25,453 nucleotides of DNA. It comes from a virus. The notes beneath the pieces were generated by a model. The model ran no database searches and was not told the origin of the DNA. It saw nothing but the letters and a program-made list of their open reading frames with translations. Shown in pieces: positions 2,821 through 17,995 of this stretch. The DNA lies in IMG/VR virus record IMGVR_UViG_3300009184_000192, positions 1-25,453 of that record; one strand, 5' to 3'. Position 1 is the first letter of the stretch; each line of letters starts with the position of its first letter. A program made the position numbers and the translations under genes.

Positions 2821-3047
2821 ACTTTTCTCACTTTTGTCCACGCAGCTAAATGTACCGGATTACCATTAGAATCTTTACAATAGCTATACATACCATCAAT
2901 GTGTCCGAACCAATACTCTGTTGCTAAATCCAACGCATCGTGTATTGGCGGTATTTTTATTTCATCATCAACAATCTTAAACTTATCGCCTTTTTGTAAC
3001 TCATACAACGCACAATTATGGTCTGCAATATCGTGTTCGTTAATCAT
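2817..3047 (-). CDS. Conserved small phage protein (76 aa)
   Basis: The sequence reads like a small beta-rich phage protein, with a GDKFKIVDD segment followed by the patterned end EYWFGHIDGMYSYC. I remember this ending from small proteins near replication genes of many aquatic phages, but they have no known function. ATG 3047 overlaps the previous stop as ATGA and has the strong ribosome binding site GGAGGG six bases upstream. No signal peptide or membrane segment is seen. Confidence 0.78.
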   Translation of the reverse strand: MINEHDIADHNCALYELQKGDKFKIVDDEIKIPPIHDALDLATEYWFGHIDGMYSYCKDSNGNPVHLAAWTKVRKV

Positions 3048-7118: not shown

Positions 7119-7397
7119 TTAGATTGCTTCGTTGTTTAGATAGGTAACACCCTTGCGAGTGCTAACATTAGCCCCTAAAGCCCTTAGACGGCTTTTAGTG
7201 GTCGGAGTTGACCAACGGCGTAGAGTGTCGGTGTTAGTCATTACAAAACCAGTGCCACCATTTACATCGGCTATGTGGTTGCCGTGTAGGAATACTGCAC
7301 AATTTACATCGTCAATAGGTCGTACTGATGTATTGCCTGATTGCCAAGATTTACGATTGTAAACAGCGTTAAGCATTTGTTGTTCAATTTTTCTCAT
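7119..7397 (-). CDS. Conserved T7-like early-type protein (92 aa)
   Basis: Starts MRKIEQQMLNAVYNRKSW and ends with a segment TPTTKSRLRALG then TRKGVTYLNN. This pattern of N-terminal helix, strand with VFLHGNHIADV, then TTKSRLRALG is one I remember in small proteins of many podoviruses and siphoviruses, without a known role. It is basic, unlike most neighbours, so nucleic acid binding is possible. The ribosome binding site is TTGGAG, 8 bases from ATG. It is the first gene after the hammerhead at 7435-7486; its leader begins at the cleavage site. Confidence 0.8.
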   Translation of the reverse strand: MRKIEQQMLNAVYNRKSWQSGNTSVRPIDDVNCAVFLHGNHIADVNGGTGFVMTNTDTLRRWSTPTTKSRLRALGANVSTRKGVTYLNNEAI

Positions 7398-7434: not shown

Positions 7435-7486
7435 GACTAAGACACCCTCTCGAGTGTTTCGGGTATTGAACCCTCATCAGTTAGTC
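7435..7486 (-). ncRNA. Hammerhead ribozyme, type I (copy 1)
   Basis: Read on the minus strand, all parts of a hammerhead are present. Stem I is GACUAA (7486-7481) with UUAGUC (7440-7435). The core is CUGAUGA (7480-7474). Stem II is GGGU/ACCC (7473-7470 and 7464-7461) with a 5-base loop. GAAA (7460-7457) follows. Stem III is six pairs closed by the GNRA loop GAGA (7451-7448), ending in U16.1 and C17 at 7442-7441. Cleavage is predicted between 7441 and 7440. The ends lie in stem I, which makes it type I. The first base belongs to the stop codon of the upstream gene. Confidence 0.93.
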
Positions 7487-7677
7487 TATACAGTCTGACC
7501 CCAAACCTCCGCTAAGTCAATATCTGATACCAACTCATCAAGTGACTGGGTGTCTAACCCCTCCAGTATATCTTCCTCCAACATTAACAAATTTTCCAGC
7601 AGTTGCTCCCTTGTGAATGTTTTCCACTGGATTAACTCACTTCTGAGAATGGTTTGAATCTTTTCTTGCTTGGTCAT
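7486..7677 (-). CDS. Small acidic helical protein (63 aa)
   Basis: A helical, acidic protein with leucine-rich spacing (LLENLLMLEEDILEGLDTQSLDELVSDIDL) and no recognised family. ATG 7677 has the ribosome binding site AAGGGAG in the same TAGATAAGG-type leader found before three other minus-strand genes. Its TAG stop (7486-7488) supplies the first base of the hammerhead at 7435-7486, so ribozyme cleavage leaves this message with a compact structured 3' end. Function unknown. Confidence 0.72.
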   Translation of the reverse strand: MTKQEKIQTILRSELIQWKTFTREQLLENLLMLEEDILEGLDTQSLDELVSDIDLAEVWGQTV

Positions 7678-7700
7678 AATATTACTCCCTTATCTAATGA

Positions 7701-7862
7701 TTAAATAATAACTGCCTTCCAATCAGAGCCTTCGCCCGTCATTACTTTACAGTAGTCCTGATATTGTGACCATGTAATTTTAGCGTGTAAGACCCAGCGA
7801 GATTTGTTTAACAGGTCTTTTTCCCACCAAAGTATTGCTACTGATTTGCGTTCGTATGTCAT
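7701..7862 (-). CDS. Small Trp-rich protein (53 aa)
   Basis: A 53-residue frame starting MTYERKSVAILWWEKDLLNK and ending SDWKAVII. It has five Trp residues and a basic N-terminal half. The ribosome binding site AAGGGAG lies in the leader GTAGATAAGG (7874-7883), and the leader itself begins 32 bases upstream at the cleavage site of the hammerhead at 7889-7940. Spacing to its neighbours is as expected for a real gene. It is not recognised, and it was found by hand translation. Confidence 0.65.
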   Translation of the reverse strand: MTYERKSVAILWWEKDLLNKSRWVLHAKITWSQYQDYCKVMTGEGSDWKAVII

Positions 7863-7888
7863 TTTAAATACTCCCTTATCTACTGTTT

Positions 7889-7940
7889 GACTAAGACCCT
7901 ATTTCTAGGGTTTCGGCTCATTAAGCCTCTTCAGTTAGTC
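7889..7940 (-). ncRNA. Hammerhead ribozyme, type I (copy 2)
   Basis: On the minus strand: stem I is GACUAA (7940-7935) with UUAGUC (7894-7889). The core is CUGAAGA (7934-7928), where the variable seventh position is A. Stem II is GGCU/AGCC with a 5-base loop (7927-7915). GAAA (7914-7911) follows. Stem III is six pairs closed by the GNRA loop GAAA (7905-7902), ending U16.1 C17 at 7896-7895. Cleavage is predicted between 7895 and 7894. The UAA stop of the upstream gene (7937-7935) forms half of stem I. Stems II and III differ from copy 1 with compensating changes. Confidence 0.93.
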
Positions 7941-8192
7941 TTCGTAAACACCCAGTTCACCGCCATTTATCCACTCAGCGTGAAGACCAAATTTGCTGAG
8001 TATGTCTGTGATTACTGGCGATACACCAAACTCCCAGTCTTCCCGCATATAAGCGTAGTAGTCACAGAATTTGTAACTGTCAGCCTCTTCAGCGCTGATT
8101 GCAAAGTGTTCCATATCGCTACGCTGATAGGTTGGTACGCCAGCGTTTTGTAGAGCCTGTAATGCTTTTTTGTATTTAGTGATTGTTTTCAT
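7935..8192 (-). CDS. Hypothetical early protein (85 aa)
   Basis: The first leftward gene after the central control region. It starts MKTITKYKKALQALQNAGV, giving a basic helical N-terminus, followed by an acidic aromatic segment (CDYYAYMREDWEFG) and a short end (GGELGVYED). It is not recognised. The ribosome binding site AAGGA sits in the leader element CAGTAGATAAGG (8200-8211). Its stop codon TAA is built into stem I of the downstream hammerhead, so ribosomes finishing this gene would disrupt the ribozyme fold until they leave. Confidence 0.75.
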   Translation of the reverse strand: MKTITKYKKALQALQNAGVPTYQRSDMEHFAISAEEADSYKFCDYYAYMREDWEFGVSPVITDILSKFGLHAEWINGGELGVYED

Positions 8193-8491
8193 TTTGTTTC
8201 CTTATCTACTGTTGTTGAGAATGATTCTTATTTACTAATTGGTGTTGCCTGTTGCGATGAATTCAGTCTGAGGCTTTGTCGATTATCTGTCTAATGATTT
8301 ATTACTATCGTTGTTTATAAACCAATAGTCTAAAACTATTTATCTAAAACGACCCGCTAGCCCTTTGTTTATATAGAAAATTGCGTTCGTAAACAGTTAA
8401 GGGCTAAGTATCATCTCAGGCTAAAACAGCTCTAAAGCCCTGTATTGCAGTCTAAACAGTATCTCAGGGTAAACCCTAGTATGTCTGTGTT

Positions 8492-8577
8492 GTTAGTGTC
8501 TACTAACTTAATTCTGAGCTGTGGAATGTTAGTAATGACTAACTTTCTAGAGCTGTGAAGTGTTAGTGATGACTAAC
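8492..8577. repeat. Three tandem dyads GTTAGT-N4-ACTAAC
   Basis: Perfect 6-base inverted arms around 4-base centres occur at 8492-8507 (centre gtct), 8528-8543 (aatg) and 8562-8577 (gatg). Start-to-start distances are 36 and 34 bases. The second and third copies also share flanking AGCTGTG. Regular spacing of about three helical turns and conserved arms with variable centres suggest binding sites for a dimeric protein, or origin iterons. Confidence 0.7.
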
Positions 8578-16964: not shown

Positions 16965-17468
16965 ATGGCGACAATAGTTAAATTAAAAAATAGTGTAACA
17001 ACAACCGCTGCTCCTAGTTCGCTAGTACAGGGCGAAGTTGCCGTTAACGTAACAGACAAAAAAGTCTGGGTCGGTAACGCAGCTTCTTCTCCAGTTCAAG
17101 TACTTGGTGCTGGTGCTACAGTAGCTGGCACAACATTAACCATGACTGGTGATGGAACATTCAGCGGTACTGGTCAAGTTAAGGTTCCAGCAGGAACTAC
17201 AGGACAGCGTAGCGGTTCTCCTGCTGCCGGTATGATGCGTTATAATAGCACTACTGGCACATTTGAAGGTTATACCACAGCTTGGGGTTCTATCGGTGGC
17301 GGTGCTACTGGTGCTGGTGGCGATGCAGTCTTTCAAGAAAACTCTAGGACTGTAACAACTAGCTACACACTAACTACTGGAAAGTCTGCATCTACTGTAG
17401 GTCCTATTACAGTAAATAGTGGTGTTACTTTAACTATTCCATCTGGTGAAAGATTGGTGATTCTGTAA
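16965..17468 (+). CDS. Fibre-associated or adhesin protein (167 aa)
   Basis: Starts MATIVKLKNSVTTTAAPSSL and contains QGEVAVNVTDKKVWVG, a module found in many phage fibre and tail-tip proteins. The centre is Gly/Thr-rich (GMMRYNSTTGTFEGYTTAWG), the common fibre pattern before a tip domain, and the end is TIPSGERLVIL, also typical. It is a secreted-looking beta protein without cysteines. The homing endonuclease gene starts at its stop codon (TAATG). It is probably part of the receptor-binding apparatus. Confidence 0.75.
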   Translation: MATIVKLKNSVTTTAAPSSLVQGEVAVNVTDKKVWVGNAASSPVQVLGAGATVAGTTLTMTGDGTFSGTGQVKVPAGTTGQRSGSPAAGMMRYNSTTGTFEGYTTAWGSIGGGATGAGGDAVFQENSRTVTTSYTLTTGKSASTVGPITVNSGVTLTIPSGERLVIL

Positions 17469-17995
17469 TGAATTTATATTGGATTCACCACAAAGACCAC
17501 TCTGACATCTTTAGTCAGGGCTATGTTGGCGTGTCCAATAATGTTGAAAAACGATGGTATGACCACAAAACATATACCAATAATGCCCATTTAAAACATT
17601 CTATGGAAAAGTATGGGTGGGACAACTTAATTAAAGAAGTTGTTTTAATTGCCGATGAAGATTATTGCTTAGATATTGAGAATAAACTCAGACCAAGTGA
17701 TAAAATAGGTTGGAATATTGTAATGGGCGGTGGAAAACCTCCTAGTGCATTGGGTAAGAAATTTGTTCGTTCTGAAGAATATAAGCAAAAACAAAGATTA
17801 GCCAAAGTAGGCAAATCCTCTTGGAATAAAGGGCTTAAACTTACAGAAGAACAAAAAGCCAAACAATTTAACCTTGCAGAATATATGAAAGACAGAGTTC
17901 GTCCAATGAAAGGCAAAAGTCATAGTGAAGAAACTAAAGAAAAAATCCGACAAACAAAATTGTCGCAATCTAGGAGCAAACAATGTCTAGCGTAA
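17468..17995 (+). CDS. GIY-YIG homing endonuclease (175 aa)
   Basis: A free-standing mobile endonuclease. The GIY-YIG domain shows YWI near residue 4, GYVGV (18-22), Arg29 and His33 in KRWYDHK, the catalytic Glu71 in LDIENKLRP, and Asn83 in GWNIV. The positions match the catalytic set of the family. Two NUMOD3-like DNA-binding motifs follow (SSWNKGLKLTEE, and GKSHSEETKEKIRQTK). It is Lys-rich and differs in composition from the Thr/Ser/Gly-rich fibre genes around it. It overlaps both neighbours (TAATG at the start, 13 bases at the end), so it is neatly fitted between fibre genes without visibly breaking them. Confidence 0.92.
   Translation: MNLYWIHHKDHSDIFSQGYVGVSNNVEKRWYDHKTYTNNAHLKHSMEKYGWDNLIKEVVLIADEDYCLDIENKLRPSDKIGWNIVMGGGKPPSALGKKFVRSEEYKQKQRLAKVGKSSWNKGLKLTEEQKAKQFNLAEYMKDRVRPMKGKSHSEETKEKIRQTKLSQSRSKQCLA

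Follow-up and report, generated by a model that had tools for sequence, protein, structure and literature searches.

The 52-nt element at 7889..7940 on the minus strand of the window (the whole stretch of DNA analysed, 25,453 nucleotides of a virus record) is best read as a self-cleaving type I hammerhead ribozyme that would act in cis as a punctuation mark in an early minus-strand transcript, with a probability of about 0.8. It is the second of two such elements in the window and is called here copy 2. The basis of this reading is its observed sequence, pairing, covariation, position and recurrence, from which we infer catalysis, co-transcriptional timing and an effect on the stability or translation of the messages. 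The 25.5-kb record carries genes for a T7-like polymerase, primase-helicase, terminase, portal and head proteins.

Sequence and fold of the second hammerhead

Read from 7940 to 7889 on the minus strand, copy 2 is GACUAA CUGAAGA GGCUUAAUGAGCC GAA ACCCUAGAAAUAGGGU C UUAGUC. Its parts and those of its neighbour are:

7889..7940, minus strand: type I hammerhead ribozyme, copy 2 (from sequence, fold, covariance model R1 and family)
7940-7935 with 7894-7889, minus strand: stem I of copy 2, 6 bp, open
7934-7928, minus strand: core CUGAAGA of copy 2
7927-7915, minus strand: stem II hairpin of copy 2
7914-7912, minus strand: GAA of copy 2
7911-7896, minus strand: stem III hairpin of copy 2, with a GAAA tetraloop
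7895, minus strand: C17 of copy 2
7894..7895, minus strand: predicted cleavage site between C17 (7895) and U (7894), placed by its position in the hammerhead core
7435..7486, minus strand: type I hammerhead ribozyme, copy 1 (from sequence; R1 75.8 bits, E 3.6e-18)

The invariant core CUGANGA...GAAA...UH is present together with the 15.1-16.1 A-U pair (7934-7895, minus strand), and copy 2 has the three stems of a hammerhead, with loops closing stems II and III and stem I left open. Stem II is better read as five base pairs with a U.G closing pair and an AAU triloop. In isolation copy 2 is predicted to adopt the hammerhead secondary structure (-16.1 kcal/mol, z -3.2), which is retained in the minimum-energy fold of its 86-nt context. 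Copy 1 is identical in stem I but differs in the other two stems, and in its own 86-nt context the minimum-energy fold is a competing structure. On all the sequence criteria that can be tested, the data support copy 2 as a type I hammerhead with presumed catalytic activity.

The original prediction had placed a second hammerhead 454 bases from copy 1 on the same strand, and both the spacing and the strand are confirmed in the sequence. The core CUGAAGA, the UC site and the GAAA tetraloop on stem III that it described are all there, and copy 2 has the same length as copy 1, 52 nt, as claimed. The proposed cut at 7895/7894, 32 nt before the ATG of the 53-aa gene, also agrees with the coordinates, since the leader runs from 7894 to 7863 and the ATG is at 7862. 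The type I assignment itself is supported by the core, the stems, the UH site, covariation in 58 relatives and a covarying tertiary contact (see below).

A widespread family with covarying stems

A pattern made of the core and UCUUAG gave two matches in the window, with 0 expected from shuffled sequences. The covariance model R1 detected copy 2 with 73.7 bits (E 1.3e-17) and copy 1 at the E value listed above; both copies are in the training set of R1, so these two scores are partly obtained by construction. No further copies were found in the window with this model (next-best match E 0.26). The independent support is provided by the family, at least 191 loci with 0 matches in the reversed control, and by the low-bias pattern described below.

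This family was collected in several scans. A scan of viral contigs with both strands of stem I fixed yielded 67 stretches, which often contain several more hammerheads with different stem I sequences. A second viral scan, which fixed the core and some positions of stem II, gave at least 120 matches, and further loci came from scanning bacterial and archaeal genomes. A structural search of all the loci collected found at least 307 hammerheads in at least 191 loci, and none in the same loci with the sequences reversed. The low-bias pattern is the one used in the second viral scan and does not require pairing in stems I and III. Among the matches listed, stem II was fully paired in 127 of 133 distinct ones (about 5% would be by chance) and a complete hammerhead was present in 123 of the 133, every one with a 6-bp stem I.

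The covariance-model search suggested in the original prediction had a mixed outcome, both copies being found by R1 and the Rfam models remaining below their curated cut-offs. At the gathering cut-offs no Rfam hammerhead family was detected in the window or in 14 ribozyme-rich loci. Sub-threshold hammerhead matches were obtained for copy 2 only, the best being Hammerhead_3 (20.9 bits, cut-off 48.5) in a different register, and RAGATH-1-hammerhead (RF03152) matched weakly in the correct register (18.9 bits, cut-off 56.3). Because the structural features of a hammerhead are present, we consider the Rfam miss a limit of its models.

In a gapless alignment of 58 members (A1), 13 of 16 base pairs had compensatory changes on both sides, and 100% of the cells were paired vs 68.6% in shuffled and 28-35% in slid alignments; the members had been chosen for partial pairing, so that the low-bias pattern is the cleaner test. 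Outside the core, conservation affected the A before stem I (96%), the A after it (88%), the G-C pair closing stem I (93/90%) and a loop II of the form U-N-A-W-U. Loop II ends in a base that covaries with the one following stem I (+7), with 216 U:A and 10 A:U combinations (mutual information z about 66; these counts ignore kinship, and the A:U form comes from three contigs). The remaining loops are of a G-type, mostly UNAUG, in which U8 can pair with +7 (A or G). Copy 2 has the UNAUG form, which would place U8 opposite A+7. A putative tertiary contact from the stem II loop to the side of stem I is thus found in this family, and its covariation fits a model in which loop II docks onto the end of stem I.

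The A-ending loop II, with U after stem I, characterizes a sub-group (L208 532-4574, L102 and L098) in which a stem I of 7-8 bp is possible; a 5.8-kb contig of this sub-group, binned as an Aliivibrio MAG, contains eight ribozymes. We also considered an outer helix past stem I, since GUUU/AAAC can be seen by eye in copy 2, although not in copy 1. It is not favoured because across the family stem I has a fixed 6-bp end with an A on each side.

Position between genes and proposed processing

Both copies lie at gene joints in the minus-strand operon:

7935..8192, minus strand: 85-aa gene upstream of copy 2, no PHROGs family
7935..7937, minus strand: UAA stop codon of the 85-aa gene, within stem I of copy 2, offset +3
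7863..7894, minus strand: predicted post-cleavage 5' leader, UUAGUC AAACAGUAGAUAAGGGAGUAUUUAAA, with a likely ribosome-binding site GGGAG
7701..7862, minus strand: 53-aa gene downstream of copy 2, no PHROGs family
7486..7677, minus strand: 63-aa gene, sharing a ribozyme-bounded segment with the 53-aa gene, no PHROGs family
7486..7488, minus strand: UAG stop codon that ends the 63-aa gene and overlaps copy 1 at the first base of stem I, offset -2
7119..7397, minus strand: 92-aa gene downstream of copy 1, phrog_554, unknown function

The 85-aa gene is the first one found on the minus strand past a gap at 8.2-9.2 kb. Copy 1 is predicted to be cut at 7441/7440, which would put the ATG at 7397 behind a leader of 43 nt. 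In viral contigs a single relative of the 85-aa protein turned up, in the near-identical contig L062/L070, so that it gives no independent evidence, and no DNA relatives of the ribozyme region were found among named phages. Scans for sigma-70 promoters and intrinsic terminators near the ribozymes gave nothing exceeding shuffled sequences. There is no ribozyme between the 53- and 63-aa genes nor between most of the other genes in the window, indicating that cutting is not required at every joint.

The same arrangement was found throughout the family. Among the matches listed, a frame of 30 or more codons opened by an ATG started within 60 nt of the cut in 227 of the 256 distinct copies that could be judged (36% in the control), with a median leader of 27 nt, and an upstream gene ended at 40 nt or less from stem I in 233 of 255 (control 32%). 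The stops of these 233 were concentrated at a few offsets, +3 (46), -2 (41), +7 (34) and +17 (17), with a further cluster at -3. At +3 the stop is a UAA in stem I, at -2 it is a UAG that uses the first G of stem I, and at +7 it is the UGA of the core. The two copies in the window have the commonest (+3, copy 2) and the second commonest (-2, copy 1) offsets among the matches listed. Predicted cleavage is downstream of all these stops and would leave the upstream gene intact. The order gene, ribozyme, leader of about 27 nt, gene is repeated in hundreds of phage loci, named isolates included, and these many close relatives at the same gene-joint position argue that copy 2 genuinely belongs to a kind of element already known.

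At least 65 loci are arrays of 2-9 copies, always on a single strand and with a median spacing of 543 nt; no array with copies on both strands was present among the matches listed. In some phages there is a ribozyme at nearly every gene joint. The locus L046 has nine in succession, delimiting segments mostly of one gene and some of two, with an ATG 20-43 nt past each cut and a frame that frequently ends at the next ribozyme.

Under the punctuation reading, once the polymerase had passed position ~7889, the three stems would form (with 6 bp in stem I), the stem II loop would dock on the nucleotides immediately past stem I and the RNA would be cut after C17. The upstream product would keep the entire ribozyme body, and with it the stop codon of the 85-aa gene, and its 3' end would consist of two hairpins followed by a 2',3'-cyclic phosphate. 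In the type I order the body would become the structured 3' end of the upstream message. The downstream product would start with a 5'-OH and a nearly unstructured 32-nt leader that carries the Shine-Dalgarno-like GGGAG in front of the 53-aa gene. With both copies cut, the 53- and 63-aa genes would be freed as a single two-gene mRNA, separated from the preceding 85-aa gene and from the following 92-aa gene. The simplest function would be to cut an early polycistronic transcript into messages that decay and are translated separately.

Other explanations were considered. Cleavage might be conditional, taking place only under some circumstances, for example set by translation of the upstream gene. 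Ribosomes terminating at a stop inside the ribozyme could prevent stem I and the core from closing and so postpone the cut, in which case translation of the first gene would decide the fate of the second. The stops inside or touching the ribozyme at +3, +7, +17 and -2 among the matches listed, of which both window copies have one, point in this direction; however, gene packing alone explains their positions equally well, and the core contains a UGA anyway. We also looked for a stem I UAA kept for termination, and the UAA was about equally common when the gene stopped further upstream (0.46-0.57), so that stem I does not appear specially tuned for the stop. Such a switch is unlikely. We give a similarly small chance to the broader idea that in some phages these hammerheads are a general system of mRNA maturation, in which termination and cutting would compete for the same nucleotides and thereby determine how many messages stay joined and how many are separated. 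Its hallmark would be one compact ribozyme per gene joint with the upstream stop inside it.

The early promoter/stem-loop boxes of T-even phages serve as joints for swapping gene cassettes, and the hammerheads could be recombination joints of this sort, with RNA cutting secondary. In some pairs, the two phages have a common gene on one side of the joint and different genes on the opposite side, the similarity breaking off at the ribozyme itself (44 + 45 such pairs vs 63 alike on both sides). These 89 mosaic pairs failed against the control, as ribozyme-free joints in the same regions were equally or more mosaic (0.86/0.69, 0.59/0.54 and 0.14/0.09 without/with ribozyme in three identity bands, with simple ORF calling), making this explanation very improbable. 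Equally little credit is due to excision, by which paired cuts would free the segment with the 53- and 63-aa genes and the ends would be religated by the reverse hammerhead reaction or by a host RNA ligase. The segment is indeed bounded by two copies with identical stem I strands, so its ends could pair in trans, but many loci are single-copy or have differing stem I sequences, and a search by Perreault et al. for circles or spliced RNA arising from prophage hammerheads was negative (PMC3088659). Finally, copy 2 could be an inactive relic, or a structured protector of the 3' end with no cutting remaining, given that the case for folding here is a secondary-structure prediction. This is extremely improbable, considering that the stems vary freely around a core, a cleavage-site pair and a tertiary contact that are all maintained, and that the A at -7 is retained in 94-100% at every stop position, even where it is coding.

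Several other features accompany the minus-strand genes. A 21-nt repeat (CAGTAGATAAGGGAGTA...ATG on the minus strand) is located at 7679-7699, 7865-7885 and 8191-8211, directly 5' of three start codons, and resembles a shared leader or ribosome-binding box (D3). Upstream of the operon there are three operator-like palindromes GTTAGTNNNNACTAAC at 8492-8507, 8528-8543 and 8562-8577, spaced by 34-36 bases (0.01 expected). They are also found in the ribozyme-bearing contigs L018, L020, L032, L037 and L060, and also in L189, and their half-sites are similar to the stem I sequence GACTAA/TTAGTC. Between genes of the tail region, a 175-aa frame (17468-17995, plus strand) resembles a GIY-YIG homing endonuclease on visual inspection.

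Relation to known ribozymes and range of carriers

Perreault et al. 2011 reported hammerheads of all three types (I, II and III) on the flanks of prophage genes and proposed that they process transcripts into operon- or gene-length mRNAs (PMC3088659). Three of their tandem sets cut in vitro and the set from A. tumefaciens also cut in E. coli (PMC3088659), and the role of phage hammerheads is still termed unknown in later papers (PMC6155905, PMC10085705). The window resembles that set in having several hammerheads on one strand that flank single phage genes or short blocks (two copies here, 454 nt apart), in the transcript-cutting role proposed and in the type I form, which is among the permutations they reported. 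As the same role was proposed there, the kind of element is already known. By the description of that set, the present family differs in that all members are type I with a 6-bp stem I and a 13-nt stem II hairpin, a conserved A is found on either side of stem I, stops lie inside the ribozyme and the carriers include free phages, among them Pelagibacter phages; furthermore, the pseudoknot of at least 4 pairs in the 2011 set is replaced here by a single contact between loop II and +7. Within our incomplete coverage of the literature, no report was found of the 6-bp stem I, the single-pair contact, the internal stops, one-per-gene arrays or the occurrence in Pelagibacter phages.

The type I hammerheads of metazoan repeats (Schistosoma type), represented by Rfam models, have in common with ours the core and the open stem I permutation. 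Those sit in repeats, whereas the present set is bound to gene joints. Another bacterial self-cleaving RNA, the glmS ribozyme, is located in an mRNA leader and leaves a coding mRNA with a 5'-OH. It is metabolite-dependent and has a different fold, while no sign of a ligand was seen in the present set.

What is described here is a uniform and recognisable family missed by Rfam, A-[6 bp]-CUGANGA-13 nt-GAAA-stem III-UC-[6 bp]-A, with a fixed placement between genes and members in cultivated phages. If confirmed, RNA self-cutting would be a routine step of mRNA processing in some aquatic phages, and transcript maps of such phages would need re-reading.

Among named phages, R1 matched the Pelagibacter phages HTVC019P, HTVC022P, HTVC131P and Jormungand and the Flavobacterium phage elemoB. 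The cut is predicted within 2948-3008 in HTVC019P, and the corresponding stretch in elemoB, which infects Flavobacterium sp. BAL314, is 17270-17213 on the minus strand. In HTVC019P the upstream 64-aa frame likewise terminates at the core UGA. No ribozyme was detected in the 50 kb searched of HTVC103P, the closest relative by its polymerase (53%). Streptomyces phage R4 and its relatives were discarded as carriers, the match being limited to stem III (model 14.4 bits, E 1.1).

The matches in bacterial genomes include contigs of MAGs and a small number of isolates. In some of them no ATG follows, which indicates that punctuation is not the sole context of these hammerheads. Single hammerheads of the same form were found in Bacteroidota contigs (L194 3800-3856, L203 7073-7126, L213 4583-4637 and L222 6637-6690); these carriers, a Daejeonella MAG, Pedobacter, Mucilaginibacter and Aquimarina, have no ATG close behind the ribozyme, possibly reflecting a different role. 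In addition, L218 and L230 (Polaromonas MAG) contain hammerheads with stem I CAACAA/TTGTTG, followed downstream by a near-identical repeat (ATTGATAGCCCTAAGCTATCCG...), an arrangement that resembles a repeated mobile unit.
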